64,000 nt of DNA, from the NCBI GenBank assembly GCA_022846095.1, contig AP025583.1, positions 124,001 through 188,000 of the forward strand, in the 5' to 3' direction. Source of the stretch: Oscillospiraceae bacterium (lineage in GTDB: Bacteria; Bacillota; Clostridia; Oscillospirales; Oscillospiraceae). How positions within the stretch are numbered: position 1 is the first letter of the stretch; each line of letters starts with the position of its first letter. This document shows, in pieces, positions 14,769-48,604 of the stretch. The translations under genes and the position numbers were made by a program. The notes under the pieces are model-generated. The model was given only the letters and a program-made list of their open reading frames with translations, was not told the origin of the DNA and did no database searches.

Positions 14769-14772
14769 GGCG

Positions 14773-15264: not shown

Positions 15265-15277
15265 GGGAGCAGTATTT

Positions 15278-21323: not shown

Positions 21324-21346
21324 CGCTGCCTCCAATCTGTGTATGG

Positions 21347-26629: not shown

Positions 26630-28039
26630 CTAGCGCGCCAAGCACTCGGCCAGCGCGGCCACGTTGTCCAGGTGCTCCAGATCCTTGCACAGGGCGATGA
26701 AGGCCTCGGTGCGCTCCGGGCTCAGCCCGGCCACCCTGGCGCCGATGCGGAAGGTCTTTTCGCAGTCCTCCCAGTCGAAGGGGTTGCGGGGATGGCCCTT
26801 GGGGAATTGCAGCCCGCCCCGGATGAGCGTGCCGTCCTTGAGGGTGATGGTCATGTCCACCTTGGGGAAGGAGCCGCCGGTGAAGATGTTGAAGCAGTGC
26901 TTTAACGGCAGGACGGTCTCCCGGTCCAGGTGGATCCGGCCGGCCAGATCCAGCAGGCCGGGGTCGGCCAGCTTGTCCTCGTCGAACCAGCCGGGGCCGG
27001 GCTCGCCCCGCAGCAGGAAGGCGGCCAGGCAGTAGGGGATGGAGAACTGGCCGTCCTTGACGCTGCGGTAGCCCTCGGGGCGGTAGCCGTCCCGGAACTG
27101 GAAGCCGGGCGTGATGTGGATGGCCTCGATGTCCCCGGCGGCGAAGCCGTGCTCCTTTTGCAGCTTGTCCAGGCAGTCCAGAGGGGTCTGGATCCACATG
27201 TTGGCGGGCCAATGCTTGAAGAGGATCTCATTGAACATGTACTCGGTGCCCAGGTTCCGGTCCAGCCAGCCCGCGTTGTCGCCCCGCTGCATCATGTAGG
27301 CGTAGCCGCCCTCAATGTCGAAGATGTCGTACATATTGTCCAGCTCACCCCGCTTGGCCATCCGGGCCAGCATGGTGCCGTTCATGCCGGTAAAGCCGAA
27401 CTGCAGGTGGTAGAAGTCGGACATCTGCTTGTGGATGATGGTGTCGATGACGGGGGTCTCGCAGGCGGTGGCCCCCATGAGCAGGTTGAACTGCTCCTCG
27501 TCGCACGCCAGCAGCTTGCCGGCGGGCATGGAGCAGGCCCAGATCTGCCAGGAGCACAGGCCCCAGCCGTTCTTGACGATGTCGAAGTCGGGGTCGGGCT
27601 GGATATGCCCGGCCACCCGCTGGTAGATCTCAAAGCCGCTGATGATGGCGGTGAGGTAGTCCCTGCCGGGCTTCCCCAGGGCCTCGGCCACGGCCATACC
27701 CACAGGGACAAAGCCCGCGGTGGGGTGGCCCGTCCAGGAGCAGTCCTCCCAGTCCAGGGTATCCGCCCCGGTGGAGTTGACGAAGATGGCGCCGTTCATA
27801 GGCATCTTCCCGCTCTGGCCCCAGGCGGTGGACATCAGCTCGGCCTGTTCGCCCACGGTGTCCCGGGCGGTGGAGAGGGCGTAGCGCACGCTGGGGGAGG
27901 GGACGGCGGCCAGGGTGGCGCCCACACAGTGCATGGTCAGCTTTTTGGCCCGGTCGATGACCTCGGCGGGGATGTCCTCGTAGCGCACCCCGGCGATGTA
28001 TTTTGCAAGCCCCTTGGTATACTCGGTCAAGTTAAACAC
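26630..28039 (-). CDS. MmgE/PrpD family protein, paralog 1
   Basis: Member of the family containing 2-methylcitrate dehydratase, cis-aconitate decarboxylase and iminodisuccinate epimerase; the reaction here is unknown. The 469 residues include the family core TGADTLDWEDCSWTGHPTAG and the GFEIYQRVAG segment. It is clearly paralogous to the gene at 31370. The longest start is GTG 28039, but GAGGTG then overlaps it; both paralogs share GAGGTG-N6-TTGACC, so TTG 28030 may be the real start. Last gene of the catabolic cluster. Confidence 0.9.
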   Translation of the reverse strand: MFNLTEYTKGLAKYIAGVRYEDIPAEVIDRAKKLTMHCVGATLAAVPSPSVRYALSTARDTVGEQAELMSTAWGQSGKMPMNGAIFVNSTGADTLDWEDCSWTGHPTAGFVPVGMAVAEALGKPGRDYLTAIISGFEIYQRVAGHIQPDPDFDIVKNGWGLCSWQIWACSMPAGKLLACDEEQFNLLMGATACETPVIDTIIHKQMSDFYHLQFGFTGMNGTMLARMAKRGELDNMYDIFDIEGGYAYMMQRGDNAGWLDRNLGTEYMFNEILFKHWPANMWIQTPLDCLDKLQKEHGFAAGDIEAIHITPGFQFRDGYRPEGYRSVKDGQFSIPYCLAAFLLRGEPGPGWFDEDKLADPGLLDLAGRIHLDRETVLPLKHCFNIFTGGSFPKVDMTITLKDGTLIRGGLQFPKGHPRNPFDWEDCEKTFRIGARVAGLSPERTEAFIALCKDLEHLDNVAALAECLAR

Positions 28040-28055
28040 CTCTTGTAATCATGAA

Positions 28056-28844
28056 TTAGAAGGTAATGGGGGAGGTCAGGCGCTTCAGAAGGGCCAGGGA
28101 GCTCCAGCCCGCCAGCATGGGCCCGCTGAGCACGCTGTCCTCGCCCCCCTGCTGGACGTGGAGCTGGGCGGCGCCGAAGGCCCCCTCCAGCTCCAGGGAG
28201 AAGCCCATGTAGGTGTCGGTGGGCACGGTGTCCACCTTCATCTTGGCCCGGTCCAGATCGCCGCCGCACGCCAGGCCCACGGCGATGCCGATGTTCAGGT
28301 GCCGGGGGGACATGGCGAAGGCATCCCGGACGCTGGCCTCGTAGCGGTCGGGCAGCTCCCGCAGCCCCGCCGGGCACTCGGGGCTGGCGGTGGGGTATTT
28401 ATGCTTGGTGATGGAGGCGTCCAGGGGCCCCACCATGGCGGCGGTGGCGGCCAGGTCGAAGCCGCCGATAACCCCGGAGGACAGGTAGAGCTTGGAGCCG
28501 TGCTCCAGGGCGGCCTGCTCGGCCCGGCGGTAGAAATCCCCGTCGCTCAGCGCGCCGATGGACAGGCAGATGATATTGCAGGGGGCGCTGAGTATGTCAG
28601 CCGCGTACTGCTTCAGGGCGTCGGCGGTGGCCGCCTCCAGGACGAAGTTGGGCTTGAGCGAGAGCAGCTCGGGCAGCGCGGAACAGGCCCTCGGCCCCCC
28701 GGTCTCGTCCGCCAGGGCCTGGGCGTGGGCCAGATCCTGATCCAGGATGCCCACCAGCTTACAGCCGGGCACCCTGCCCTCGTGCAGGCCCCTGGCGATG
28801 ATCCCGCCCAGCTTTCCGCTGCCTAAGAGTCCGATTTTAACCAT
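28056..28844 (-). CDS. L-aspartate dehydrogenase-like protein (NadX family)
   Basis: NAD(P)-dependent oxidoreductase of 262 residues. Rossmann start MVKIGLLGSGKLGG (Gly8, Gly10, Gly13) and the family segment YLSSGVIGGFDLAATAAMVG, matching the SGAIGG..AL region of aspartate dehydrogenases. Those enzymes interconvert aspartate and iminosuccinate/oxaloacetate. In this cluster of dicarboxylate and amino-acid enzymes it may deaminate a freed amino acid or reduce an imine. There is a 16-base gap to the PrpD gene downstream; a hairpin-containing gap of 75 bases separates it from the SnoaL gene upstream. Confidence 0.82.
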   Translation of the reverse strand: MVKIGLLGSGKLGGIIARGLHEGRVPGCKLVGILDQDLAHAQALADETGGPRACSALPELLSLKPNFVLEAATADALKQYAADILSAPCNIICLSIGALSDGDFYRRAEQAALEHGSKLYLSSGVIGGFDLAATAAMVGPLDASITKHKYPTASPECPAGLRELPDRYEASVRDAFAMSPRHLNIGIAVGLACGGDLDRAKMKVDTVPTDTYMGFSLELEGAFGAAQLHVQQGGEDSVLSGPMLAGWSSLALLKRLTSPITF

Positions 28845-28884
28845 AAAAAAGCACCTCCTGTAGATTGTCGGTTGGTTTCCTCAC

Positions 28885-28916
28885 GGCGCGGCCCCGGTTG
28901 GGGCCGCGCCTTTTTT
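28885..28916 (+). terminator. Terminator-like hairpin, plus-strand polarity
   Basis: GGCGCGGCCCC, loop GGTT, GGGGCCGCGCC, then TTTTTT on the plus strand. It lies between two minus-strand genes of one operon, where it would act as an RNA stem rather than a terminator; as a terminator it faces the opposite strand. Confidence 0.6.
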
Positions 28917-28919
28917 GCG

Positions 28920-29537
28920 TTACAGGCCCAGCCAGGCGCTGCTCTCGTCGTACATGGCCTGCACCGTCTCGGGCCGGTCTTCGCCGATCATGTCCGGGTT
29001 GGGGCTGCCGCCGAAGCGGATCTGGCGGTACATCATGTTGGCGTAGGAGGGGCGGTAGGGGGCGAGCAGCTCGGGCGAGGTGGTGAATTTGCCGTTGGCG
29101 TAGGCCGAGTGCATCATGTCCTTCTCGTACACGCCGCCCATGTTGGAGATTTTCCACACGCCCTCCCGCTTTTCCAGGCGGAAGTGGATGCGGGTGTGGG
29201 TGGTCATGTCCACCAGATCCCCGTCCAGCTTGCAGCGGATCTGGATGACCGCGATGCACTCCGCCACCGCCCGGCTGCCGTTGAGCCAGACGATGGTGTT
29301 GAAGATCTTGTGCCGGGGCGGGATGGAGGCCCGCTTGCGGGAGCCCTCCACGAATTCGTCGATGCCGGCCGTGGTCCAGGAGGTGCACACGGTGGCGTCG
29401 TCGTGGTAGCACGCGCGCATCTGGTCCCAGTGCTCGTAGTCCCGGCAGTAGCGCTCGTACTCCACCAGCTCCCGGATGTTTTCCTTGTCCAGCAGCTCCT
29501 CCAGGGTGTTGCGGCCCATCTTGCAGTCGAAAATCAT
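28920..29537 (-). CDS. SnoaL/NTF2-fold protein
   Basis: A 205-residue protein with a SnoaL-like (cone-shaped alpha+beta) domain: early helices ENIRELVEYERYCRDYEHWD, then CYHDDATVCTSW and later HTRIHFRLEKREGVWKISN. Members include small hydratases, isomerases and dehydratases or ligand-binding proteins. Start ATG 29537, four bases after AGGAGGTGA and overlapping the racemase stop (ATGA); the longer frame is spurious. Its place between a racemase and a dehydrogenase suggests a catalytic rather than regulatory job, but the reaction is unknown. Confidence 0.8.
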   Translation of the reverse strand: MIFDCKMGRNTLEELLDKENIRELVEYERYCRDYEHWDQMRACYHDDATVCTSWTTAGIDEFVEGSRKRASIPPRHKIFNTIVWLNGSRAVAECIAVIQIRCKLDGDLVDMTTHTRIHFRLEKREGVWKISNMGGVYEKDMMHSAYANGKFTTSPELLAPYRPSYANMMYRQIRFGGSPNPDMIGEDRPETVQAMYDESSAWLGL

Positions 29538-30289
29538 GCGCTCACCTCCTGTTTCCCGCCGGGCGCGGCCTGAAAAAGCCTGCCCAGCCGCCCGGCGGCG
29601 CCGGGGCTGTGGTGGCCGAAGAACTCGCCGATCTCCCAGACAGAGGCCTGGTTGCTGGTGACCAGGGGCACACCCAGCTCCTCCTCCAGGCCGGGGATGA
29701 CCTCCAGGATGCACAGCCCGGTGCAGCTGACGAAGAGGGCCTCGCTGGTGGGCTTCCAGCACTTCTTGGCCAGGGCGTAGATCTCCTCGGGCCTGGTCCT
29801 GGGCACCAGCTTGGGGTCCTTGTGGCCCAGCCCCGCGATTTCGTCCACGGTGTAGCCCAGGTGCTCGAAATAGACTCGCTCCCGTTCGTTGACCTCGTCG
29901 GGGTAGGGCGTGACGATGGTCAGGCGGCGGGCCCGGAGCCGCTCCAGCGCCCGGAGCACCGCCGTGGTGGTGGTGGAGGCGTGGCGGGCCCCCGCGGCCT
30001 CCCGCAGCTCGGCGGCGATGCGCCGGTCGTACCCGTCCCCGCCGATGAGGCTGCCGGTGGTGCAGGCGAAGAAGACCATGTCGGGGCTGTAGGTCTTTTT
30101 GAAGAGCTTCACCGCCTCCACCGTGCGCGCGCTCATGGCCTGGATGCCCTCGCAGGTGACGGCGTCGTAGTCCACGGGGACGCCGGCGATGCCGATGTCG
30201 GGGTGGAGGTTGCGGTGCAGCTGGGTGTTCACGTTCACTCCGGGGGCGGGGCTGACCACGGCCAGCCGCCCCAGCGTTCCATAGGGCAT
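29534..30289 (-). CDS. Asp/Glu racemase superfamily, maleate-isomerase-like
   Basis: The 251 residues carry both catalytic cysteines: Cys76 in VFFACTTGSLIGG and Cys189 in FVSCTGLCILE. Two-cysteine members include maleate cis-trans isomerase, Asp/Glu racemases and hydantoin racemase, whereas arylmalonate decarboxylase keeps only one. Cys76 and the GSLIGG-GYD segment are most like maleate isomerase. In this cluster it could isomerise or racemise a dicarboxylic or amino acid product. It overlaps the SnoaL gene by four bases and follows the opine-dehydrogenase-like gene by 16. Confidence 0.85.
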   Translation of the reverse strand: MPYGTLGRLAVVSPAPGVNVNTQLHRNLHPDIGIAGVPVDYDAVTCEGIQAMSARTVEAVKLFKKTYSPDMVFFACTTGSLIGGDGYDRRIAAELREAAGARHASTTTTAVLRALERLRARRLTIVTPYPDEVNERERVYFEHLGYTVDEIAGLGHKDPKLVPRTRPEEIYALAKKCWKPTSEALFVSCTGLCILEVIPGLEEELGVPLVTSNQASVWEIGEFFGHHSPGAAGRLGRLFQAAPGGKQEVSA

Positions 30290-30305
30290 ATGTGTTCCTC
30301 CCGTC

Positions 30306-31373
30306 TCAGCGCCGATTCCTGAAGAAGTCCAGCAGCGCGTCCCTGCCGTGCAGATGGCCCAGGCCCAGGTTGGCCAGGGTGCGGCCGCCTGCGTAGTAGT
30401 CGTCCCGGTTGACCGCCGAGGCGATGCGCTCCATGGACCGGAACAGGGGCACGTCGATGTCCAGTGCCCCGGCCACCGAGATGAACAGGCACACCAGGGT
30501 GGGGGTGTCCTCGGTGATGTAGCGGTTGGTCACCGCGTCGGGCCCGGCCAGGAGCTTGAAGCTGTCGTACTCGTGGACCTGGGGGTCCAGGTATTTGCGG
30601 TAGGTGCCGGAGGAGGAGGCCCCGGCGGGCAGGCCCAGCGCGTCCATGACCTGCTTCTTTTCCTCGAACATGGCGTCGGCCAGGTTCATGGCGCTGCGGC
30701 AGACGCCCTGCTGAAAGACGTAGTAGGGCTCCGTGGCGGTCTCGATGGCCCCCGCGTTGAGCAGAGTGAGCACGATGTGCCCGATGAGGTTGGGGCCGTT
30801 GAGAGCGGTGTCCAGGATGCTGTTCGCCGCCTCGAACTCGTACACGCCCCGGAAGGCCTCGATGAGCCTGGGGGTGTCGCAATAGGGCAGGGCTGCCACC
30901 TTCTTTTTCGTGTAGGGCAGGCCGATGCGGCACAGGCCGGGCTTGAGCAGGCGGCAGGGGAAGATGTTCCCGCAGGACTCGCCTACCACCACGCCGTCCA
31001 GGCCCCGCGCGTCAAACACCCGGCGGTAGACCAGCGTACCCAGGCCACCCGAGCTGAGCAGCACCACGCTGTCCGGGCGCAGGTGGGGGGCGATGAGCTC
31101 CGCCGCCTCCTGATCCCGGTTGGCGACGGTGCAGCAGATCACCAGCTCCGCGCCCTCCAGGGCGCGGGCCACGTCGGTGGTGATCAGGTGGATTTTGGCC
31201 GTCCCCTCGCCCATGCTGCCCGTGAGGGAGATCTCCCCCAGGGCGGCGGACTGCTCCAGGACGGCGCGGTAGGCCTCGCCGTCGCACAGGCGGACCTCAT
31301 GGCCCCGGAGGGAGAGCTCGGCGGCCAGGGTGTGGCCGGTCCCGCCGGCCCCGACAATCGCGATTTTTTTCAT
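30306..31373 (-). CDS. NAD(P)-dependent opine/octopine dehydrogenase family protein
   Basis: Oxidoreductase of 355 residues: Rossmann motif IAIVGAGGTGHTLAAELSLRG at the N-terminus and a C-terminal helical octopine-dehydrogenase domain with NGPNLIGHIVLTLLNAGA, containing the His expected for catalysis. Family enzymes reversibly join an amino acid and a 2-oxo acid through a secondary amine, so this one may oxidatively split an N-carboxyalkyl amino acid. ATG 31373 overlaps the upstream PrpD stop (ATGA). 2-Dehydropantoate reductase-like function is a less likely alternative. Confidence 0.82.
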   Translation of the reverse strand: MKKIAIVGAGGTGHTLAAELSLRGHEVRLCDGEAYRAVLEQSAALGEISLTGSMGEGTAKIHLITTDVARALEGAELVICCTVANRDQEAAELIAPHLRPDSVVLLSSGGLGTLVYRRVFDARGLDGVVVGESCGNIFPCRLLKPGLCRIGLPYTKKKVAALPYCDTPRLIEAFRGVYEFEAANSILDTALNGPNLIGHIVLTLLNAGAIETATEPYYVFQQGVCRSAMNLADAMFEEKKQVMDALGLPAGASSSGTYRKYLDPQVHEYDSFKLLAGPDAVTNRYITEDTPTLVCLFISVAGALDIDVPLFRSMERIASAVNRDDYYAGGRTLANLGLGHLHGRDALLDFFRNRR

Positions 31374-32785
31374 CTTCCACACTCCAAGCATTGGGCCAGT
31401 TCGGCCATATTCTCCAGGTGCTCCAGATCCCGGCAAAGAGCGATGAAGCGCCTGGTCTTCTCTGCGCCCAGCCCGGCGATCTCCGCGCCGATGCGGAAGG
31501 TGCGCTCGCAGTCCTCCCAGCCGAAGGGGTTGCGGGGGTGGCCCTTGGGAAACTGCATCTGCCGGCGCAGCACCGCGCCGCTTTTCAGCGTCACCGTCAT
31601 GTCCACCCGGGGGAAGGAGCCCTCCATAAAGGTGTTGAAGCACTTGCGCAGGCCCCAGACCTCCTCCCTGTCCAGATGTACGCGGGAGGCCAGCTCCAGC
31701 ACCGCCGGATCGGACAGCTTGTCCGCGGAAAACCAGCCCGGCCCGGGCCGGCCGCACAGCAGATAGGCGGCCAGGCAGTAGGGGATGGAGAACTGGGCCT
31801 CCTTGCAGCTGTGGTAGCCCTCGGGGCGGAAGGCGTCCCGGGCCTGGAAGCCGGGCGTCACGCCGATAGAGGAGATCTCTTCGGCGGTAAAGCCGTGCTC
31901 GGCGCGCATGGCGTCCAGACAGCACAGGGGGGTCTGCACCCACATGTTGGCGGGCCAGTACTTGAAGAGGATCTCGTTGAAGAGAAACTCATCCCCCAGG
32001 TTGCGGTCCAGCCAGCCGTCGTTTTCAAAGCCGCGCATCATGTAGGCGTAGCCGCCCTCCACGTCCAGGATGTTCTGGAGGTTGTCCAGCTCGTCCCGCC
32101 GGGCCATGCCCGCCAGCACCGCGCCGTTCATGCCTGTGAAGCCGAACTGCAGGTGGTAGAAGTCGGACATCTGGCGGTGGATAATGGTCTCCACCACCGT
32201 GGTGGCGCAGCCGGTGGCGCCGATGAGCTGGTTGAGCTGCTCCGGGCTGCACCCCAGCAGCTTGCCCGCGGGCATGGAGGCGGCGAAGATCTGCCAGGTG
32301 GCCAGCCCCCAGCCCTGCTTGCCCAGGTTCCAGTCCTGGGGGGGCTGGATGTAGCCGGCGATGCGCTGGTAGACCTCGAAGCCGCCCACGGCGGCGGTGA
32401 GGTAGTCCCTGCCGGAGCGGTTCATGGCCTCCGCCATGGACAGCGACACGGGGATGAAGCCGGCGGTGGGGTGGCCGGTCCAGGAGCAGTCCTCCCAGTC
32501 CAGCGTGTCCGCGCCGGTGCAGTTGACGAAGACCGCCCCCATCACGGGGGCCTTACCCGGCTGACCCCAGACCGTGGCGAGCCGCGGCCCGCCACGGCCC
32601 ATGGTGTCCAGCGCGGCGGCGCGGGCCCGCGCCGCGCAGGGCATGTGCTTGGCCGCCAGGGTGGCGCCCACCGTGTGCATGGTCAGCTTCTTCGCCCGGT
32701 CCACGACCTCGGCCGGGAGATCCTCGTAGCGCAGGCCGGCTAAAAAGTCCGCCAGGCCCTGTGTGTAATGGGTCAAATTCAACAC
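31370..32785 (-). CDS. MmgE/PrpD family protein, paralog 2
   Basis: 471 residues, strongly similar along its whole length to the protein at 26630 (shared ADTLDWEDCSWTGHPTAGF, SDFYHLQFGFTGMNG, FPKGHPRNPF). Two closely similar family members in one operon suggest action on two stereoisomers or two successive intermediates, or a heteromer. GTG 32785 is the longest start; TTG 32776 has the better ribosome-site spacing. The 150-base gap upstream to the MATE gene is the largest within the cluster and holds a TATAAT at 32817-32822 on the minus strand without a clear -35. Confidence 0.9.
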   Translation of the reverse strand: MLNLTHYTQGLADFLAGLRYEDLPAEVVDRAKKLTMHTVGATLAAKHMPCAARARAAALDTMGRGGPRLATVWGQPGKAPVMGAVFVNCTGADTLDWEDCSWTGHPTAGFIPVSLSMAEAMNRSGRDYLTAAVGGFEVYQRIAGYIQPPQDWNLGKQGWGLATWQIFAASMPAGKLLGCSPEQLNQLIGATGCATTVVETIIHRQMSDFYHLQFGFTGMNGAVLAGMARRDELDNLQNILDVEGGYAYMMRGFENDGWLDRNLGDEFLFNEILFKYWPANMWVQTPLCCLDAMRAEHGFTAEEISSIGVTPGFQARDAFRPEGYHSCKEAQFSIPYCLAAYLLCGRPGPGWFSADKLSDPAVLELASRVHLDREEVWGLRKCFNTFMEGSFPRVDMTVTLKSGAVLRRQMQFPKGHPRNPFGWEDCERTFRIGAEIAGLGAEKTRRFIALCRDLEHLENMAELAQCLECGR

Positions 32786-32935
32786 CTCGCAATTTTGGGG
32801 GTCCCTTTTATAACAATTATAGCGGCAGCGGATTTGCGATGCATGGGGCGGCTGAATTGTTTTTTGGGGGCCGTGTTTTACATTCCTGTGCGTCTGACCA
32901 ACGGAGAAAGACCGGATTCGCCGGGGGCCGCGGCT

Positions 32936-34318: not shown

Positions 34319-34348
34319 ATCCGCTGCCTCCTTTCCGGGCGGGGCGGC

Positions 34349-34383
34349 CCCGGCGGGCGGGGAGGGGACCGCCGCCCGCCGGG
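34349..34383. other. GC-rich intergenic hairpin
   Basis: CCCGGCGGGCGG and CCGCCCGCCGGG form a perfect 12-bp stem with an 11-base loop between the amidohydrolase and MATE genes. No U-tract on either strand; possibly an mRNA stability or processing stem. Confidence 0.5.
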
Positions 34384-34393
34384 ATACCGCGGC

Positions 34394-35548: not shown

Positions 35549-35582
35549 ATGATCCCTCGTTTCAGTGGTTTCCCCGGCGGGC

Positions 35583-36797: not shown

Positions 36798-36805
36798 CTC
36801 CGCGC

Positions 36806-38455: not shown

Positions 38456-39462
38456 GTCAAATCCTCCTCTTTTATGTCGGTATACGGTTCCGGCCGTTCC
38501 GGCCGGGCTGCGTAGGGACAGGCCACCAGGTGGGTGCCGCTCACCGGGAAGAGATCCCCGGAGATGGCGGAGCAGTCCTTCTTCGCAAGGGGGCAGCGGT
38601 TGCTGAACCGGCAGCCCGCGGGCGGGTGCAGGGGGCTGGGCACGTCGCCGGTGAGCAGGATGCGCTCCCGCTTTGCGCCCACGTCGGGGATGGGCACGGC
38701 GGAGAGCAGGGCCTTGGTGTAGGGGTGCAGGGGGGAGGAGAAGATGTCCTCCCGGGTGCCGAACTCCACCAGCCGGCCCAGGTACATGACGGCCACCTTG
38801 TCGCACAGGTAGCGAACCACGCTCATGTCGTGGGAGACGAAGAGATACGAGACGCCGGAGCGCTTCTGGGCGTCCTTCATCAGGTTGAGCACCTGGGCCC
38901 GCACCGACACGTCCAGGGCGGAGACCGGCTCGTCGCAGACGATGAAGGAGGGGTCCATCACCATGGTGCGGGCGATGACCACCCGCTGGCGCTGGCCGCC
39001 GGAGAGCTCGTGGGGCAGCTTGTGGAACTGGGACTCGTCCAGCCCCACAAAGCCCAGAATGGACTCCACCTTTTCGGTGCGCTCCTGCTTTGTGCCCAGG
39101 CTGAAGGCCTCCAGCGGGGCGTTGACCAGGGAGAAGATGGTCTGCCGGGGATCCAGGGAGGCGTAGGGGTCCTGGAAGATGAACTGCAGATCCCGGCGCA
39201 GGGGGCGCATCTGCCGGGTGTTGTAGTGGGAGATGTCCTGCCCCTTGTAGATCACGCTGCCGCCCGTGGGGGCGTGCAGGTTGATGACGGCCTTGCCGAA
39301 GGTGGACTTGCCGCAGCCCGACTCGCCCACCAGGCCCACCGTCTCGCCGGGGCAGATGTCCAGGTCGATGCCGTCCACGGCCTTGAGCACGGGGGCCTTC
39401 CGGCCGCCGCCCACCGGGAAGTGCTTTTTCAGGCCCCGGATTTTCAACAGCGGTTCTGCCAT
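38452..39462 (-). CDS. ABC importer ATPase (OppF/DppF type)
   Basis: 336 residues with Walker [10 protein letters not shown], signature LSGGQRQRVVIA, Walker B FIVCDEPVSALD and the C-terminal OppF cysteine-containing domain (CRFSNRCPLAKKDC) that in this family binds an iron-sulphur cluster. Pairs with the ATPase at 39462-40466, with which it shares one base. Confidence 0.93.
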   Translation of the reverse strand: MAEPLLKIRGLKKHFPVGGGRKAPVLKAVDGIDLDICPGETVGLVGESGCGKSTFGKAVINLHAPTGGSVIYKGQDISHYNTRQMRPLRRDLQFIFQDPYASLDPRQTIFSLVNAPLEAFSLGTKQERTEKVESILGFVGLDESQFHKLPHELSGGQRQRVVIARTMVMDPSFIVCDEPVSALDVSVRAQVLNLMKDAQKRSGVSYLFVSHDMSVVRYLCDKVAVMYLGRLVEFGTREDIFSSPLHPYTKALLSAVPIPDVGAKRERILLTGDVPSPLHPPAGCRFSNRCPLAKKDCSAISGDLFPVSGTHLVACPYAARPERPEPYTDIKEEDLT

Positions 39463-40466
39463 TACGTCCCCTCCTGTCCGTCCGCGGCGCAGGCGAAGCA
39501 GCGCACCAGATGGTTTGGCTCCACCTCCAGCAGCGGGGGCGTCTGCTTTTCGCAGGCGCCGCCGCAGCCGGGACAGGCGGTGCAGCGGTTGTGGAAGCGG
39601 CAGCCCTCGGGCATCCGGCTCAGCGGCGGCACGGTGCCGTCGATGCTGCTCAGGCGCTCCATGTCCCGGTCCGCCCGGGTCAGGGAGGCCAGCAGGCCCC
39701 TGGTGTAGGGGTGCATGGGGCGGTTGAAGATGGTCTGCACGCTTGCATACTCCACCACCTGGCCCGCGTACATCACCATCACCGTGTCCGCCATCTCGGC
39801 CACCACGCCCATGTCGTGGGTGATGAGAAGGATGGAGGTGTCCATCTCCTCCTGGAGCTGCTTCATCAGCTGCAGCACCTGGGCCTGGATGGTCACGTCC
39901 AGGGCGGTGGTGGGCTCGTCGGCGATCAGCAGCTCCGGCCGGGCCGAGAGGGCCATGGCGATCATCACCCGCTGCCGCATACCGCCGGAGAGCTGGTGTG
40001 GGTAGTCCCGCATCCGCTCGGCAGGGGAGGGGATGTCCACCTTCTCCAGCATTGCGATGGACTTCTGCCAGGCCTCCTTCTTGCTCATGCGCCTGTTCTT
40101 GGCCCGGTACATCTCCACCATTTGGTCCCCGATGCGGTACACGGGGTTCAGGGAGGTCATGGGCTCCTGAAAGATCATGGAGATCTTGTCCCCGCGGACC
40201 TGGCGCATCTCCCGGTTGGTCAGCTTGGTCAGATCCTGGCCGTGAAAGAGGATACTGCCGTTGGAGATGGTGCTGGTCTGCTTGGGCAGCAGGCGCAGGA
40301 TGGTGTTGGCGGTGACGCTCTTGCCGCAGCCGGACTCGCCCACGATGCCCAGAATCTCCTTCTTATGGATCTGGAACGAGACGTCCTGGATGGCGGTCAG
40401 CATGTCGCGCTTGCTGACGCGGAACTTGACCTGTAGATCCCGGACGTCCAAAATCACCTCAGACAT
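39462..40466 (-). CDS. ABC importer ATPase (OppD/DppD type)
   Basis: 334 residues: Walker [10 protein letters not shown], signature [15 protein letters not shown], Walker [13 protein letters not shown] and C-terminal [13 protein letters not shown] motif. Together with the OppF-type subunit it forms the heterodimeric motor of the importer; 18 bases separate it from the permease gene upstream. Confidence 0.93.
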
Positions 40467-40484
40467 GGAACAAAACCTCCTTTC

Positions 40485-41333
40485 CTACAGTCTCTTCATC
40501 TTGGGATCCAGCGCGTCGCGCACGCCCTCGCCCACGAAGTTCAGGCACACGATGGTCAGCATCAGGCACAGCCCGGCGGGGATCCACTGCCACCAGCGGC
40601 TGGTGAGCACGGTGAGGTTGTTGGCGGCCTGGATGATGTTGCCCCAGGAGGCCTGGGGCGGCTGCACGCCGGCACCCAGGAAGCTCAGCGCGGACTCGGT
40701 GAGCATGGCGTTGGAGATGCGGAAGGCCAGGGAGACCCAGAGGGGCGCGATGGAGTTGGGCAGCACCGTCTTGAAGATGATCTTGGCGTCACTGCTGCCG
40801 ATGGCGCGCTCCGCCTCCACGAATTCACGGCTGCGCACCGAGAGCACGTTGCCGTAGATCAGCTTGGCCACGGCGGGCCAGTGCAGCACCCCGATGGTTA
40901 CGATCAGCAGCTGCACGCTGGAGCCGAACACGGCCACGATGACCAGGTTGAGCACGATGGAGGGGAAGGAGAGGAAGATGTCGGCGGTGCGCATAATCAG
41001 CGTCTCGGCCTTGCCCCGGTAGTAGCCGGCCACCAGGCCCAGGGGCAGGCCCACCGCCACGCTGACCAGGGTGGCGCCCAGGCCGATGAGCATGGACACT
41101 CGGCCGCCCGAGAGCAGGCGGGCGAGCAGGTCGCGGCCCACGTCGTCGGTGCCCAGCAGGTGGACGGCCCCGGGGGGGCTGCCGAAGGCGGCCGTGTCGG
41201 AGGTGATGGGGTCCAGGCCCAGTACGCCGGGCGCGATAACGACCACCAGGATCTCCAGCGCGAGGATGAAAAAGGCCACGACCGCCAGCTTGTGCTTGGC
41301 GAAATTATGAATGAAGCTGTCTTTTTTGGACAT
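40485..41333 (-). CDS. ABC importer permease (OppC/DppC type)
   Basis: 282 residues with six membrane helices, the N-terminal FAKHKLAVVAFFILAL helix typical of OppC, and the EAA loop EFVEAERAIGSSDAKIIFKT. Follows the OppB-type gene by 16 bases. Confidence 0.93.
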   Translation of the reverse strand: MSKKDSFIHNFAKHKLAVVAFFILALEILVVVIAPGVLGLDPITSDTAAFGSPPGAVHLLGTDDVGRDLLARLLSGGRVSMLIGLGATLVSVAVGLPLGLVAGYYRGKAETLIMRTADIFLSFPSIVLNLVIVAVFGSSVQLLIVTIGVLHWPAVAKLIYGNVLSVRSREFVEAERAIGSSDAKIIFKTVLPNSIAPLWVSLAFRISNAMLTESALSFLGAGVQPPQASWGNIIQAANNLTVLTSRWWQWIPAGLCLMLTIVCLNFVGEGVRDALDPKMKRL

Positions 41334-41349
41334 ATCCCGTACCTCTTTC

Positions 41350-42300
41350 TTAGTCGAACCGGATTCTGGGGTCCAGATACGCGTAGAGCAGATCCACGAT
41401 CAGGTTGGCGATCAGCACCGCCGCGGCGATGAGCACGGTGATGGCCATGATGACGTTGTAGTCCCGCTGGTTGATGGAGAGCACCAGCAGGCTGCCCATG
41501 CCGGGCCAGCCGAAGATCTGTTCCGTGACGGTGGAGCCGCCTACCAGATAGGGAATGTTCAAACCGATGCAGGAGACGATGGGGATGAGGGCGTTGCGCA
41601 GGATATGCTTGACCACCACGGCGCCCTCGCTCAGGCCCTTGGCCCGGGCGGTCTTGACGTATTCCTCGTTCATCACGTCCAGCATGCTGCCCCGGGTCTG
41701 CTTGATGTAGGTGCCCATCATGCGGATGACCGTCACCCCCACCGGCAGCACCAGGTGCGCCGCCAGATCGCCCAGTCCGCCGCCCCCGCTGGAGTACATG
41801 CCCATGGCGGGCAGCAGGTGCAGCAGGACTGAGAAGAAGTAAAGCGCCACCAGGGCCACGAAGAAGTTGGGTGTGGACGCGCCCAGGAAGGCCAGGAAGG
41901 AGGAGACGGTGTCCCAGCCGGAGTACGGCTTCAGCGAGGCCATGATGCCCAGCGGCACCGCGATCAGCAGCGAGACCACCAGGGCGGTGAGGGTCAGAAT
42001 CAGGGTGGGGGCGATGCGCTCCCGCACCAGGCTCCACACCGGCTGGTTCGTGCGGGTGGACGTGCCGAAGTCCCCGTGCAGCATGTCCCCCAGCCAGCCG
42101 GCGTAGCGCACCACGACGGGCTTGTCCAGCCCGTACTGGACCCGCAGCGCCTGCTCGGCCTCGGGCGTCAGGTCGCCCGCCGCCTTGACGAGGTCCACGG
42201 GGCTGCCCGGCGCCGCGTTGGACAGCAGGAACACCGCCACCGTGATGACAATAAACGTCGGGATCGCCTGAAAGAGCCGTTTCAGTATGTACTTAAACAT
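41350..42300 (-). CDS. ABC importer permease (OppB/DppB type)
   Basis: 316 residues; N-terminal ILKRLFQAIPTFIVITVAVF and the long periplasmic-type loop typical of DppB, then the EAA loop EYVKTARAKGLSEGAVVVKH. First gene of the transporter block, 25 bases after the M20 hydrolase gene. Confidence 0.93.
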   Translation of the reverse strand: MFKYILKRLFQAIPTFIVITVAVFLLSNAAPGSPVDLVKAAGDLTPEAEQALRVQYGLDKPVVVRYAGWLGDMLHGDFGTSTRTNQPVWSLVRERIAPTLILTLTALVVSLLIAVPLGIMASLKPYSGWDTVSSFLAFLGASTPNFFVALVALYFFSVLLHLLPAMGMYSSGGGGLGDLAAHLVLPVGVTVIRMMGTYIKQTRGSMLDVMNEEYVKTARAKGLSEGAVVVKHILRNALIPIVSCIGLNIPYLVGGSTVTEQIFGWPGMGSLLVLSINQRDYNVIMAITVLIAAAVLIANLIVDLLYAYLDPRIRFD

Positions 42301-42325
42301 GTGTTACCTCCACGCGGCCTTCGCG

Positions 42326-43768
42326 TCAGATTGCTTCGGGGGGCACGGCGTCCTTCGGCAGGGGGCAGTCGTACACGCCGCCGTTTTTCCCGAGGAACTC
42401 CTCCCGCGCGGCGGCCAGAATGTCCCCGCGCTCCATCACCCGGACGGCGGCGAGGGCCATGACCTTGCCCGCGACCAGCATCCCCTTGCGCCCGATGGGG
42501 GACTTGCCCTGGGCCGTCATCTGCCAGGTGTGGAGCTGGGTGCCCAGGGCGTTGGTGGCCACGTTCAGCTTGGCGGTGGGGACCACGAAGCCCACGTCCC
42601 CCACGTCGGTGGCGCCGAAGACGTTGGTGACCTTGTCGGGGGTGTACTCGCCCACGATGGTGTCCAGGGGGCGGGCGAGCTTCTCCTCCACCGCCTGCGC
42701 GCCGTAGCGCGCCTGGATCATGGCCCGGCCCGCCGCCTTCTCGCTCTCGCTGAGGGAGTCGGCAAACTCCTTCGCCAGGGCGAAGTCCTCCTCATCCCAG
42801 GCCGGGGCGCCGATCTCGTGCAGGGCCTCGTCCAGCACTGACGCCAGCACGACGTTCTGGGTGAACTCGGAGTAGGCGCCCCCCGTCCGGGAGGTGACCG
42901 TGGTGCCGCTCATCATGGCGGCCCCCTCCGCGATCCGGTCGATCCGGGCGAAGGCCTCCACCACCTGGCTGATATAGGGCGCACGCACGATGTACTTCAC
43001 CGCCGCGTGGTCCTGCACGATGTTGGGCGCGGGGCCGCCGGCGTCCAGGTAGGCGTAGTGCATACGCACATCGCCGGAGACGTGCTCGCGCAGGTAGTTG
43101 GCCCCCACGTTCATCAGCTCGCAGGAGTCCAGCGCGCTGCGCCCCAGCTGCGGGGCCGCCCCGGCGTGGGCGGACACCCCCTTGAACTCGTACACCTTGG
43201 ACAGGGTCGCGGCCATGTGGTTGGCGCGCATCTGGTTGATGGAGCCGGGGTGCCAGGTGTAGACGAAGTCCACGCCCTCAAACTCCCCGTCCCGGGCCAT
43301 AAAGGTTTTGCCGCCGCCGCCCTCCTCCGCGGGCGTGCCGAAGTAGACCACCGTGCCGGGCCTGCCGGTCTGCTCCAGGTAGTCCTTGAGGGCCACCGCC
43401 GCCGCCAGCGCCCCGGCGCCCAGCAGGTTGTGGCCGCAGCCGTGGCCGTAGGCCCCCGCCTCCACAGGGCGCTTGCAGGTGCAGCCCGCCTGCTGGCTCA
43501 GCCCGGGCAGCGCGTCAAACTCGCCCAGAAAGCCCGCCACCGGGTGGCCGCTGCCCCACACGCCCTTGAACGCGGTGGGGATGCGGGCCAGGCCCCGGGT
43601 GACGGTAAAGCCGTAGCCCTCCAGGGCCTTACAGAGCAGATCCGCGGACCGGAACTCCTGGAAGCCGCCCTCGGCGCAGTCCCAGATGGCGTCGCTGACG
43701 CCGATAAACTCCTGCTCCCGCTGGTCGATTGCGCGCGACACGAGGTCCGCGGCGTGTTCCACTGACAT
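42326..43768 (-). CDS. M20 amidohydrolase (AbgB-like), paralog 1
   Basis: Zinc-dependent amidohydrolase of 480 residues related to p-aminobenzoyl-glutamate hydrolase subunit B. Motifs: FLGEFDALPGLSQQAG, GHGCGHNLLGAGALAAA (metal His), GTPAEEGGGGKTFMARDGEF (catalytic and metal Glu), FVYTWHPGS, and the lid-domain GVSAHAG. Such enzymes cleave N-acyl or N-aroyl amino acids and amidated amino acids. It directly precedes the importer genes, so it probably acts on the imported compound. Its paralog lies 14 bases upstream. Confidence 0.9.
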   Translation of the reverse strand: MSVEHAADLVSRAIDQREQEFIGVSDAIWDCAEGGFQEFRSADLLCKALEGYGFTVTRGLARIPTAFKGVWGSGHPVAGFLGEFDALPGLSQQAGCTCKRPVEAGAYGHGCGHNLLGAGALAAAVALKDYLEQTGRPGTVVYFGTPAEEGGGGKTFMARDGEFEGVDFVYTWHPGSINQMRANHMAATLSKVYEFKGVSAHAGAAPQLGRSALDSCELMNVGANYLREHVSGDVRMHYAYLDAGGPAPNIVQDHAAVKYIVRAPYISQVVEAFARIDRIAEGAAMMSGTTVTSRTGGAYSEFTQNVVLASVLDEALHEIGAPAWDEEDFALAKEFADSLSESEKAAGRAMIQARYGAQAVEEKLARPLDTIVGEYTPDKVTNVFGATDVGDVGFVVPTAKLNVATNALGTQLHTWQMTAQGKSPIGRKGMLVAGKVMALAAVRVMERGDILAAAREEFLGKNGGVYDCPLPKDAVPPEAI

Positions 43769-43782
43769 GAGAAGTCCTCCTT

Positions 43783-45174
43783 CTAATTTGTCCCTCCGAT
43801 TTTTTTGAGCCGCTCCGCCTGGGCGCCGTCCAAAAGCTCCGGCTGCCGGTAGACGCGGATGGCGGCGACGCTGAGGATTTCAGCCGCGCAGGCGATGCCC
43901 TTTTTCCCGATGGACGAGGCGATCATGCCCGTCATAAACCAGGAGTGGGCGGGCGTGCCCAGCGCCGCGCAGGCCACCCGCATGGAGGCGGTGGGCGTCG
44001 CGTAGCCCACGTCCCCCACGTCCGAGGACGCCCCGCTGCGCTTGCACACCTCCGGGTTGAAGGGCTCCACCAGGGGGTCCAGGGGGCGATACAGCACGGC
44101 TTCGGCGGACTCCCCGGGGTACTTCCTGCCGATCATCTCCCGCACGGTCTGCCGCTGCTGGGGGCCGTACTGCGCGAGGAAGGCCCTGGCGAGGGCGTAG
44201 TCCGCCTCGTCCCATTTTGGGGCCCCCACGCCGCGCGCGGCATCGCTGAGGATATTGGCGGCCACGTGGTTCTGGAAGCGGTCCGCGTACCCGCTTTTCA
44301 TCACGATGCGCGACGCGGTATCCGTCATCAGCCCCGCGCCCTGGGCGCAGGCCACCACCCGCTGGAGCACCTCGCGCACCTCCCGGGCGCGGGGGGCGCG
44401 CACCGTGTAGGCCAGGGTGGTGCGCCCCCGCTGCCGCACGGGGACGGGGGCGTCCGCGTCCACATGGGCGTAGGAGATGCGCACGTCGGGGGAGACGTGC
44501 TCCCGCAGATAGTTGACGGCTACGTTCATCAGCTCGCAGGCGTCCACGGTGGCGTCCGCCGGGGCCTCCCCCTCCGGGGTAAAGACCACCTGGAAGGACT
44601 GCATTGCCGCCAGCTCGCTGTTGGGCACCCCCGTCTCGCTGCCGGGGTGCCAGGAGAAGACGCAGTCCACGTCGTCGAACTCCCCGTCCCGGGCCATCAG
44701 GGGCTTGACGCCGTCCACCTCCTCGTCGCAGCAGCCGTAGTACCGCACGGTCCCGGCCAGCCGGTGCTCCTCCAGATAGCGGCGGACCATGATCGCCGCG
44801 GCCAGGGAGCCGCTGCCCAGCGCGCAGTGCCCGCACCCGTGGCCGAAGCCCCCCTCCGTGACCGGGGCGGGCGCCGGCACCCCGGCCTGCTGGCTCAGCC
44901 CGGGCAGCGCGTCGAACTCCCCCAGAAAACCGACCACCGGACGGCCCGCGCCGTAGGAGGCGATAAACGCCGTGGGGCGGCCGCTGACGTTTTCCCGGAC
45001 GGAGAAGCCGTTCTCCCGCAGCACGCGCGCCAGCAGTCCGGCCGAACGGTGCTCCGCGCCGGAGGGCTCCGCGAAGCGCCAGAGGGATTCGTTTACGCCG
45101 TAGATCAGCGGGGAGATCCGGGCGAAGCAGTCCTCCGCCCACGCGGGCAGGGCGTCGGGACGTTCCAATGCCAT
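43783..45174 (-). CDS. M20 amidohydrolase (AbgB-like), paralog 2
   Basis: 463 residues with the same motif set as paralog 1 (FLGEFDALPGLSQQAG, GHGCGHCALGSGSLAAA, YYGCCDEEVDGVKPLMARDG, CVFSWHPGS), but the acidic motif is CCDEE instead of PAEEGG and the lid HAG motif is replaced by a PEGEAPAD stretch, so substrate range or activity should differ. First gene of the 16-gene cluster; ATG 45174 follows GAGGTGAT by six bases. Confidence 0.9.
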   Translation of the reverse strand: MALERPDALPAWAEDCFARISPLIYGVNESLWRFAEPSGAEHRSAGLLARVLRENGFSVRENVSGRPTAFIASYGAGRPVVGFLGEFDALPGLSQQAGVPAPAPVTEGGFGHGCGHCALGSGSLAAAIMVRRYLEEHRLAGTVRYYGCCDEEVDGVKPLMARDGEFDDVDCVFSWHPGSETGVPNSELAAMQSFQVVFTPEGEAPADATVDACELMNVAVNYLREHVSPDVRISYAHVDADAPVPVRQRGRTTLAYTVRAPRAREVREVLQRVVACAQGAGLMTDTASRIVMKSGYADRFQNHVAANILSDAARGVGAPKWDEADYALARAFLAQYGPQQRQTVREMIGRKYPGESAEAVLYRPLDPLVEPFNPEVCKRSGASSDVGDVGYATPTASMRVACAALGTPAHSWFMTGMIASSIGKKGIACAAEILSVAAIRVYRQPELLDGAQAERLKKIGGTN

Positions 45175-45255: not shown

Positions 45256-45284
45256 ATTTTAGCGGAACAGCGCGGCAAAGTCAT
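45256..45284 (-). promoter_or_regulatory. Candidate promoter of the catabolic cluster
   Basis: On the minus strand ATGACT (45279-45284), 17-base spacer, TAAAAT (45256-45261), about 80 bases before the first gene. The -35 matches consensus at four of six positions, as expected for an activator-dependent promoter. Confidence 0.4.
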
Positions 45285-48272: not shown

Positions 48273-48455
48273 ATACATAAATAGCGGGAAAAATCACTTC
48301 TATTTTTTGTATATATGTACTATAAATAAAATATACTATAGTTTAGTAGGAAAAAAACGACCTTGGCCTATGGCGGAAACCGCTTTACGATATATGATAA
48401 AATTTTGGTTTCCTAAGGGAGGGGAATCCCTGCCGACGGTGGAAAGGAGCGTGGC

Positions 48456-48527: not shown

Positions 48528-48604
48528 GGCGCCCGGGCGGAACCCCGTATCCGTTGAAGGCTTGTACCGAAAAACAGGAAGGAACGCTTGTAAGGAGGAA
48601 AAGC

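Follow-up and report, generated by a model that had tools for sequence, protein, structure and literature searches.

Gene content of the locus

Between positions 26630 and 45174 of the window, i.e. the whole 64-kb stretch of DNA that was analysed, 16 genes lie on the same strand (Table 1). All 16 reading frames are open, with overlaps or short gaps between genes, and most starts are preceded by a Shine-Dalgarno-like sequence. The gene content first listed for this region was borne out for 16 of 16 frames by profile matches, namely to two MmgE_PrpD proteins, an aspartate dehydrogenase (AspDH)-like enzyme, a SnoaL_4 protein, an Amdase/EutA-like racemase, Octopine_DH, MatE, an amidohydrolase, M24/Creatinase_N, SBP_bac_5, OppF, OppD, OppC, OppB and two M20 enzymes. 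The AspDH, EutA, M24 and solute-binding protein (SBP) assignments all fall below curated equivalog cut-offs. The M24 enzyme has a degenerate metal site, three of five ligands being changed in the alignment at what we take to be the canonical positions. Carboxymethyl-lysine and p-aminobenzoyl-glutamate, which had been put forward as candidate compounds, gained no specific support here.

Position 26630 proved not to be the edge of the block. A CdaR-type regulator adjoins it on the opposite strand, followed by an FAD/molybdopterin/4Fe-4S unit (21347..25262; 20619-25262 with a MobA-like gene), which lay outside the original boundary and had been overlooked. The 3' end of the 4Fe-4S gene lies within the MobA-like frame as listed; the MobA match of that frame begins at residue 45, and its cluster (c17) was found in 7 of 77 sources including the window. 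Upstream of the first gene, a terminator-like hairpin (45454-45429) precedes a promoter-like site, a weak call given that two such sites were found in the region and 1.7 were expected by chance.

Table 1. Features of the locus and its surroundings, with the evidence for each assignment
Feature	Position	Strand	Evidence
MobA-like molybdenum cofactor guanylyltransferase (accessory)	20619..21428	-	NCBIfam MobA-type models ≤127 bits, below cut-offs
4Fe-4S dicluster ferredoxin-type subunit	21347..21862	-	PF13247 70.7 bits; 34/76 loci
Molybdopterin oxidoreductase, DMSO-reductase superfamily	21863..24031 (start approximate)	-	PF00384/PF01568/PF04879; 38/76 loci
FAD/NAD oxidoreductase (Pyr_redox_2)	23991..25262 (start inferred from homologues' length)	-	PF07992 147 bits; 36/76 loci
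CdaR-type regulator, sugar-diacid recognition domain and PucR helix-turn-helix	25436..26626	+	PF05651, PF13556; cluster c27 also in L017-L020
PrpD_A, MmgE/PrpD fold, distinct subfamily, predicted epimerase/isomerase	26630..28039	-	PF03972 and PF19305; AF2 model pLDDT 93.6
AspDH-like enzyme	28056..28844	-	NadX-type models 100-108 bits, below cut-offs; 2dc1 E 1e-14
SnoaL_4 protein	28920..29537	-	PF13577 54 bits
Asp/Glu-racemase-superfamily enzyme, EutA/maleate-isomerase-like, two active-site Cys	29534..30289	-	Pfam and NCBIfam matches
Opine dehydrogenase (octopine/CENDH family)	30306..31373	-	PF02317 85.4 bits, cut-off 30; 1bg6 E 1e-30
PrpD_B, MmgE/PrpD-like, second member of the PrpD_A subfamily	31370..32785	-	67% identical to PrpD_A
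MATE exporter	32936..34318	-	PF01554; TIGR00797 209 bits, over cut-off
Amidohydrolase-superfamily enzyme	34394..35548	-	PF01979/PF07969; nearest PDB 3ooq E 2e-87, titled only 'amidohydrolase'
M24 (creatinase/prolidase) enzyme, degenerate metal site	35583..36797	-	PF00557 and PF01321
Family-5 solute-binding lipoprotein	36806..38455	-	PF00496 235 bits; PDB Lmo0135, then AgaA
OppF-type ATPase	38452..39462	-	Profile matches
OppD-type ATPase	39462..40466	-	Profile matches
OppC-type permease	40485..41333	-	Profile matches
OppB-type permease	41350..42300	-	Profile matches
M20 amidohydrolase A (HmrA/Xaa-Arg dipeptidase/AbgB-like)	42326..43768	-	TIGR01891 231 bits, over cut-off; HmrA 3ram E 5e-34
M20 amidohydrolase B, paralogue of A	43783..45174	-	PF01546 over cut-off; TIGR01891 149.5 bits, just under 153.75
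Promoter-like site	45256..45284	-	Upstream of first gene; weak

Active sites of the central enzymes

The dehydrogenase possesses both the Octopine_DH helical domain and the catalytic His/Arg/Asp set of its family. Residues H199, R284 and D289 occupy the positions of H202, R292 and D297 in CENDH (1bg6, the best PDB match), which we take to be the catalytic residues there, and they are invariant in 56 of 56 homologues. A second Octopine_DH gene in the same genome directly precedes an SBP-OppBCDF set.

Both Pfam domains of PrpD_A score well above the cut-off of 32.1 (121.4 and 77.7 bits), and its nearest relative by sequence and fold is iminodisuccinate (IDS) epimerase (2hp0; Z 45.0, rmsd 2.4, 432 aligned). 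According to the available text of PMC12290011, IDS epimerase and methylsuccinate isomerase share the active-site set H85, D88, H99, H150, K198 and K266. Among 108 sequences of the PrpD subfamily, D88 (107), H99 (107) and K266 (108) are kept, while H85 is Asp throughout and the other two positions are replaced in every sequence, H150 by Gly (83), Ala (12), Asn (12) or Ser (1), and K198 by Asp (93), Asn (14) or Ser (1). The reported catalytic His of IDS epimerase is present in 107 of 108 sequences; Tyr145 of its proposed two-base mechanism is not conserved. With three of the six residues replaced throughout the subfamily, PrpD_A was rejected as an IDS epimerase or methylsuccinate isomerase, and iminodisuccinate itself, named in the original prediction, is an unlikely substrate. 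Since H85, H150, K198 and Tyr145 are not kept, the reaction may not be an epimerisation at all. Assignment as 2-methylcitrate dehydratase PrpD was likewise dismissed (best 24 bits against an NCBIfam cut-off of 950).

The racemase carries the paired cysteines (C76 and C189) of two-cysteine Asp/Glu racemases and maleate isomerases; its homologues have Cys/Cys in 58 of 66 cases, Ser/Ser in five and other pairs in three. Arylmalonate decarboxylase has a single catalytic Cys and Gly at the second position, and this identity was rejected on the two cysteines and on score (99 bits, cut-off 225). In the AspDH-like enzyme NAD_binding_3 is above cut-off and Asp_DH_C just below (25.9 bits against 27); the NadX-type scores, set against equivalog cut-offs of 206-267, do not allow it to be called aspartate dehydrogenase NadX. 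The molybdopterin oxidoreductase has acetylene hydratase as nearest PDB entry (2e7z, E 1e-56) and Cys as metal ligand (C164) in 41 of 41 aligned sequences. In the formate dehydrogenase alpha subunit His follows the metal-ligand Cys. Here the residue is Asn in the window and His in only 4 of 41 sequences, and the model scores 280 bits against 666, which excluded that assignment.

A conserved core with exchangeable front ends

Comparison with 76 loci (77 sources with the window) did not bear out the 16 genes as one conserved unit, as the complete set was found in one locus of the 76. Instead, the loci resolve into a core and its front ends. The core consists of one or more MmgE/PrpD-like proteins and an opine dehydrogenase (the latter unseen in 16 loci), joined less regularly by the two-cysteine racemase (present in 44 loci, unseen in 32) and the Mo/FAD/4Fe-4S complex (present in 39, unseen in 37). 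Where the racemase or opine dehydrogenase was not seen, PrpD often lies beside CysK or TRAP genes, and this company of PrpD without opine dehydrogenase suggests a role broader than opines.

Importers and hydrolases are the exchangeable front ends. All 7 sources with an importer of the Opp or DUF5058 type have M20 hydrolases, compared to 2 of the 42 (of 77) with DASS or TRAP carriers. The SnoaL_4 protein occurs in each of the 4 Opp-type sources and in none of the 73 others; the MATE family is found in 7 of 77. TRAP DctM is encoded in 17 loci, and a previously untyped carrier, absent from the window and present in 27 loci, adopts the DASS/INDY fold (9mcr, Z 32.3, rmsd 2.9 over 452; 6wtw, Z 32.3, rmsd 3.0 over 459). 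OCD-family proteins were seen in 26 loci. An FrdA-like flavoprotein is present in 9 loci, none of which has the Mo complex (p 9e-4, shared ancestry uncorrected); the top model of the flavoprotein is fumarate reductase/succinate dehydrogenase, at 205 bits against a cut-off of 587.

Linkage of the genes in relatives, set beforehand as a test of the original prediction, was found. All 16 genes recur in the same order, at 48-88% identity, in the metagenome-assembled genome (MAG) uncultured Oscillospiraceae E12__bin334 (contig CALXCU010000121.1; L107 and L017), with the regulator, FAD oxidoreductase, Mo enzyme and FeS protein at the equivalent position in L017. In 300 same-family genomes, the window genome included, the PrpD subfamily occurs in 11 and the opine dehydrogenase clade in 10 of these (10/1/0/289; Fisher p 8e-18, shared ancestry uncorrected), and all 12 copies of the clade lie 9-5472 bp from a PrpD. 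This association is partly circular, in that PrpD-linked copies served to build both profiles and the score cuts were chosen after the gaps had been seen. At a loose cut (E 1e-40), 43 genomes contain any PrpD, 37 any opine dehydrogenase and 17 both (p 5e-7, ancestry uncorrected), with p only 0.02 when the 11 core genomes are left out. PrpD and opine dehydrogenase distance matrices from 56 loci correlate with r 0.70 (maximum of 2000 permutations 0.17, ancestry uncorrected). Such co-occurrence, close spacing and correlation argue for one functional unit. Going by record titles, many gut and rumen anaerobes carry the core, with Anaerotruncus colihominis DSM 17241, [Clostridium] asparagiforme DSM 15981 and Oscillibacter sp. 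PC13 among the cultured ones.

Proposed pathway and competing readings

Uptake and catabolism of N-acyl or N-carboxyalkyl amino acids, as originally proposed, is still the best reading, given the conserved dehydrogenase residues, the kinship of PrpD_A with IDS epimerase and the linkage in relatives. More specifically, we estimate a probability of about 0.5 that the window holds, in its full-length form, a modular pathway by which anaerobes catabolise opine-type aminopolycarboxylates. The Opp-type importer would take up an amide-masked or cyclised conjugate, which may be opened by the amidohydrolase together with the M24 enzyme and the M20 pair. Judging from family chemistry, the PrpD pair and the racemase could interconvert stereoisomers at carboxylate-bearing carbons, allowing a stereospecific NAD-linked opine dehydrogenase to oxidise the C-N bond and presumably release an amino acid and a 2-oxo acid. 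The amine or imine set free may pass to the AspDH-like enzyme, elsewhere to OCD (ornithine cyclodeaminase)-family enzymes, and a linked redox step may fall to the FAD/4Fe-4S/molybdenum complex; the regulator adjoining these genes is predicted to recognise diacids. In other gut bacteria, dicarboxylate carriers would feed the same core, mostly without an M20 hydrolase.

The substrate class is moderately supported, as read from the sequences. The CENDH match with its invariant residues, the second Octopine_DH gene before an SBP-OppBCDF set and the OCD proteins suggest opine chemistry; sponge-type opine dehydrogenases fall in the same superfamily as the OCD family, and in the octopine operon an OCD accompanies an ABC importer (available text of PMC4575208). 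The DASS/INDY-fold and TRAP carriers and the diacid domain point to a polycarboxylate, the distribution of M20 hydrolases to modularity, and the kinship with IDS epimerase and retained catalytic His to epimerisation. If this reading is true, it would provide a genetic handle on the removal of unusual N-linked amino acids by gut communities and give functions to a molybdenum enzyme, a divergent family of DASS carriers and an MmgE/PrpD subfamily that is still uncharacterised. In its minimal form the module comprises a carrier, PrpD, opine dehydrogenase and the Mo/FAD/FeS complex, which is small enough to be reconstituted directly.

A less probable explanation, though the strongest competitor, is that the core serves to degrade or respire a polycarboxylate free of nitrogen, either hydroxylated or unsaturated. 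PrpD would then be a (de)hydratase or an isomerase, the dehydrogenase would act on hydroxy acids, and the Mo complex, or the flavoprotein replacing it, would reduce C=C bonds as electron sink. The prevalence of DASS and TRAP carriers and the mutual exclusion of the Mo complex and FrdA-like flavoprotein agree with this, as does the 1,4-dicarboxylate substrate range given for all characterised MmgE/PrpD enzymes in the available text of PMC12290011. However, the opine dehydrogenase catalytic set is invariant, OCD and AspDH families use amines or imines, and the cationic PrpD positions are now Asp (H85) or almost always Asp/Asn (K198), which disfavours a plain dicarboxylate.

Returning to the opine-type pathway, a speculative extension, itself rather improbable, is that gut anaerobes dedicate it to stereochemically scrambled carboxyalkyl adducts of amino acids arising by non-enzymatic damage, e.g. 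glycation or fumarate adducts. The PrpD subfamily, re-tooled at two reported carboxylate-side residues (His and Lys to Asp or Asn), would then isomerise ammonium-bearing substrates, and the Mo/FAD/4Fe-4S complex would take the place that a flavin opine dehydrogenase has in aerobes; the fumarate-reductase-like flavoprotein would be the alternative to this complex.

Breakdown of a cyclic amidine or imine, for instance one resembling ectoine or creatinine, is an unlikely role for the cluster. It would proceed through M24 ring opening (DoeA/creatinase-like), M20 deacylation (DoeB2-like) and a final EutA-like racemase and AspDH step. EutA is the best NCBIfam match of the racemase, the M24 and M20 enzymes match DoeA and DoeB2, and the loss of M24 metal ligands is presumably shared with creatinase and DoeA. 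The scores are nevertheless far under the cut-offs (EutA 112 against 318, DoeA 46 against 613, DoeB2 44 against 550 bits), neither an ectoine-type transporter nor DoeC/DoeD was seen among the typed genes, and M24 was matched only in L017 among the 76 loci, with M20 scarce beside DASS/TRAP carriers.

Synthesis and export of an opine, as metallophore or fermentation end product, is very improbable. Opine dehydrogenases are reversible, so the sequence is also compatible with a biosynthetic (reductive) direction, and the dehydrogenase, MATE exporter and Opp set for re-import resemble opine-metallophore loci. Yet no nicotianamine-synthase-like (CntL) gene was present among the typed genes, the Cnt models match below cut-offs (CntA 57 against 800, CntC 182 against 440, CntD 261 against 380, CntF 263 against 385 bits), there would be no use for the four genes of hydrolase families and the two PrpDs, and MATE is infrequent. 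That the genes are mere neighbours without a common pathway, as the single complete set might suggest, is the least probable and already disfavoured, with the core linked in 10 of 11 family genomes with the PrpD subfamily and an Opp, M20, SnoaL, PrpD and opine dehydrogenase set found separately in two MAGs (L046, Lachnospiraceae; L053, Clostridium sp.).

A literature search found no description of such a module. The closest systems in the available text of PMC4575208, Agrobacterium occ/noc and Pseudomonas putida OdhABC, likewise have an ABC importer, an opine-cleaving dehydrogenase and a complex containing flavin and FeS; the octopine operon includes an ornithine cyclodeaminase gene, and the P. 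putida cluster is flanked by an NAD(P)-dependent opine-synthase homologue. Opines are broken down there by a flavin complex that contains FAD, FMN and 2Fe-2S, whereas the window has a molybdopterin enzyme with 4Fe-4S, adds PrpD-fold proteins and a two-cysteine racemase, and belongs to gut-type anaerobes. Iminodisuccinate degradation in Agrobacterium tumefaciens BY6, as cited in PMC7347537, also employs a PrpD-fold epimerase on an N-linked aminopolycarboxylate, together with a C-N lyase; the window has an opine dehydrogenase, no C-N lyase among its typed genes, and replacements at half of the active-site positions reported for IDS epimerase. Ectoine utilisation (doe/eut) shares the M24, M20 and EutA-like combination, but this identity was rejected on the scores above and on the rest of the pathway not being seen among the typed genes. 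The staphylopine (Cnt) locus was rejected for want of a CntL-like gene among the typed genes and on the sub-cut-off transporter models.

The yxe locus of Bacillus subtilis presumably encodes an M20-family deacetylase and, in YxeQ, an MmgE/PrpD-family protein. For this S-(2-succino)cysteine breakdown locus an ABC transporter, a deacetylase and YxeQ of 'unknown function' are described (PMC9706529). The window was rejected as a 2-succinocysteine locus of this kind, as its importer differs and the families of YxeK, YxeL and S-(2-succino) lyase were not seen among the 16 genes and typed neighbours. In five of the compared loci a PrpD, without opine dehydrogenase, is accompanied by CysK and an ABC importer of the His type.

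Conservation of the sixteen-gene block

The window (C1:124001-188000) is part of a single-contig genome of 4.31 Mb, and the cluster of sixteen uptake and catabolic genes originally predicted in it is real. All 16 genes are open and lie on the minus strand with short or overlapping junctions, and the gene types originally assigned were recovered by Pfam and NCBIfam matches. Most of the 16 proteins score far below the NCBIfam equivalog cut-offs, and are therefore regarded as superfamily members rather than members of the named functional families. Upstream of the block, the operon scan detected a single weak promoter-like site, and no decisive terminator was found within the block. A GC hairpin of 11 pairs separates the SnoaL and AspDH genes; since its 3' T-run is found on the plus strand only, transcription of the operon is not expected to stop there.

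The whole block recurs in the metagenome-assembled genome E12__bin334 (CALXCU010000121.1) with window order kept and 48-88% identity, running M20-B, M20-A, OppB, OppC, OppD, OppF, solute-binding protein (SBP), M24, amidohydrolase, MATE, PrpD_B, opine dehydrogenase (DH), racemase, SnoaL, AspDH and PrpD_A. As in the window, PrpD_A is followed by a regulator and the Mo complex, that is FADox, a molybdopterin (Mo) enzyme and a 4Fe-4S (FeS) protein. In Pseudoflavonifractor sp. 524-17, one contig (L020) carries two PrpDs, opine DH, racemase, a DASS carrier and the Mo complex, and a separate contig carries pieces of the front end, with M20-B matched full length, M20-A in three pieces, and OppB and OppC partially. 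The M20/Opp front end of this strain is apparently decaying, with M20-A broken by frame breaks.

Elsewhere in the window, the RNA family scan returned rRNA and tRNA only. The stretch spanning an integrase and a replication protein is probably a mobile element integrated at a tRNA-Thr end, and G+C is lower (0.54-0.57) at 10-14 kb.

Coordinates of features in the window and in compared stretches
Feature	Location	Strand	Remark
Integrated mobile element (probable)	window 10260-16630
Tyrosine integrase	window 10263-11468	-	directly after tRNA array
G2P-like replication protein	window 15677-16627	+
Tandem repeat	window 17626-17917		59-bp unit, 4.9 copies, 80% matches
Mo complex	window 21347-25262		outside the original block boundary
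Sixteen-gene block	window 26630-45174	-
GC hairpin	window 28885-28910
Candidate ORF, 453 aa	window 48413-49774	-	no Pfam match
Candidate ORF, 483 aa	window 49888-51339	-	no Pfam match
Third PrpD of the genome	C1:3403088
M20/Opp front end, Pseudoflavonifractor sp. 524-17	L106 7287-11668
Second candidate opine-uptake operon	L110 (C1:504001-523500) 8523-16145

A modular core and the linkage of its genes

The wider result is a modular core that is distributed across gut-type anaerobes and reaches beyond the gene set first noticed. A PrpD_A peptide search of genome contigs gave 91 stretches, of which 88 were confirmed and the best 80 used, corresponding to 76 distinct loci which, going by record titles, belong to Oscillospiraceae, Lachnospiraceae, Desulfovibrionaceae, Coriobacteriales, Synergistaceae and other groups (L050, whose PrpD was missed by automatic gene selection, is counted). 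As many loci are incomplete at their ends, gene absences are upper bounds in the following counts. Opine DH was present in 60/76 loci and racemase in 44/76 by ORF clustering, and any of the three Mo-complex genes in 39/76 (Mo enzyme 38, FADox 36, 4Fe-4S protein 34). DASS-type carriers were found in 27/76 and TRAP DctM in 17/76, together with the ornithine cyclodeaminase (OCD) family in 26, CysK in 8 and AspDH in 3. A frequent arrangement begins with LysR and opine DH, followed by the DASS carrier, two racemases and two PrpDs, and then by FADox, the Mo enzyme, the FeS protein and OCD. The smallest set, found in [Clostridium] asparagiforme and Clostridiales 1_7_47_FAA, comprises a regulator, PrpD, opine DH, the DASS carrier and all three Mo-complex genes, without a racemase. 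A fumarate-reductase-like (FrdA-like) flavoprotein, present in 9/76 loci, never co-occurred with the Mo complex (p = 9e-4); OCD and AspDH likewise showed zero co-occurrence, with numbers too small to mean much. No description of this gene combination was found among the top-ranked matches in open-licence PMC papers.

Since the 76 loci had been chosen by PrpD, each protein was surveyed separately by profile in 300 same-family genomes, including the window genome and some sources of the 76 loci. With clade cuts set after the score gaps had been seen (PrpD 579 versus 242 bits, opine DH 425 versus 284 bits), 26 PrpD copies were found in 11 genomes and 12 opine-DH copies in 10. Both clades were present in 10 genomes, PrpD only in 1, opine DH only in 0 and neither in 289 (Fisher p = 8e-18, uncorrected for shared ancestry), the clades being in part defined by linkage because the profiles derive from copies linked to PrpD. 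Every one of the 12 opine-DH copies lies 9-5472 bp from a PrpD. At a loose cut (E 1e-40), any MmgE/PrpD was found in 43 genomes, any opine DH in 37 and both in 17 (p = 5e-7), but once the 11 core genomes were set aside the overlap was much weaker (7 of 32 and 27; p = 0.02), which indicates that it is these two clades that are tightly associated. Over 56 loci, PrpD and opine-DH distances correlated with r = 0.70, compared to a permutation maximum of 0.17 (n = 2000; shared ancestry uncorrected). A search for the PrpD subfamily in the window genome at E 1e-40 gave two matches only; a third PrpD, with 22% identity, falls outside the subfamily and is not among the copies counted.

Active sites and candidate substrates

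After length filters, 108/111 PrpD, 56/60 opine-DH and 66/67 racemase sequences were aligned. Every CENDH-equivalent catalytic position compared is invariant in the 56 opine DHs, and the racemase active site is Cys/Cys in 58/66 sequences and Ser/Ser in 5/66. In the Mo enzyme, the metal-ligand Cys is present in 41/41 sequences, followed by a variable residue that is His in 4/41 only. Assignments as formate dehydrogenase, arylmalonate decarboxylase, ectoine or Cnt metallophore proteins were rejected by membership tests.

The AF2 model of PrpD_A (pLDDT 93.6) matches iminodisuccinate (IDS) epimerase with Z 45.0, mammalian cis-aconitate decarboxylase with 43, Bacillus IRG1 with 41-42 and methylcitrate dehydratases with 32-38. 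PMC12290011 gives six putative catalytic residues for IDS epimerase (H85, D88, H99, H150, K198 and K266), and describes a 1,4-dicarboxylate backbone common to substrates of characterised MmgE/PrpD members, the residues coordinating the shared substructure being conserved in the family. By sequence alignment, which is least certain near H150 and Tyr145 where gaps are found, the PrpD subfamily keeps H99 and D88 (107/108 each) and K266 (108/108). H85 is replaced by Asp in 108/108 and K198 by Asp (93 sequences) or Asn (14 sequences), H150 is Gly in 83/108 and His in none, and Tyr145 is unconserved. Near-invariant residues new to the subfamily are E98, D99, R141, N280, Q284 and H416. We infer that one PrpD carboxylate site has been turned into a site for a cationic group. 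Because of these changed residues, iminodisuccinate has become a less likely substrate, and no specific support was found for carboxymethyl-lysine or p-aminobenzoyl-glutamate, which had also been put forward. The original reading as breakdown of N-acyl or N-carboxyalkyl amino acids is right in part, anaerobic catabolism of opine-type (N-carboxyalkyl) amino acids being the best, moderately supported, explanation.

PrpD was found without opine DH in 16/76 loci (six with CysK; some incomplete), suggesting that the subfamily serves other substrates too, and in such loci a thioether analogue is conceivable. In five Lachnospiraceae/Butyrivibrio loci (L043, L064, L066, L089 and L090), a PrpD of the subfamily without opine DH adjoins a His-type ABC importer and CysK-like genes, with PatB- and CGS-like genes as well in L066 and L090; this set is a possible sulphur analogue of the pathway. 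YxeQ is an MmgE/PrpD protein. In PMC9706529, the 2-succinocysteine yxe locus includes YxeQ, with 'unknown function'.

Transport and proposed route

The 492-aa carrier has a DASS/INDY fold in its predicted structure and no Pfam or NCBIfam match at E 0.001; no carrier was seen in 20/77 sources (the 76 loci and the window). M20 hydrolases accompany 7/7 sources with Opp or DUF5058-type importers versus 2/42 with DASS/TRAP carriers (p = 4e-7), and SnoaL is found in 4/4 Opp sources and 0/73 others. Two of these four Opp sources, and the SnoaL or M20 genes assigned to them, depend in part on entries made by hand from ORF or homology matches (opine DH, FADox, SnoaL and Opp of the window, hidden by overlapping ORFs, and M20/Opp of the E12__bin334 locus, L017, on adjoining L107). 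This distribution suggests two modes of supply, direct import of a polycarboxylate or its release within the cell from an amide-type conjugate. In L046 and L053, whose PrpDs are 81% identical, Opp, M20, SnoaL, PrpD and opine DH occur together again, with a fumarate-reductase-like flavoprotein replacing the Mo complex.

The observed genes, their linkage, the conserved residues and the fold would fit a route in which the Opp importer takes up the compound and the M24, amidohydrolase and M20 proteins unmask it by hydrolysis. PrpD and racemase could then provide stereochemical levelling before NAD-linked oxidation of the C-N bond, the amine being dealt with by AspDH or OCD and the Mo complex presumably serving a redox step. 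The strongest outside support for such a mechanism is the likeness to known opine clusters (PMC4575208). In these, opine dehydrogenases are likewise paired with an ABC importer, and the octopine operon also contains an OCD; sponge-type opine dehydrogenases belong to the OCD superfamily. No counterpart of the Mo complex is described in the passages of PMC4575208 on these clusters.

The second Octopine_DH gene in the window genome directly precedes an SBP-OppBCDF set and, together with an RpiR-type regulator, forms another candidate opine-uptake operon. For the window SBP, the nearest PDB relatives are Lmo0135 and AgaA, the latter an opine-binding protein, followed by many peptide-binding proteins.
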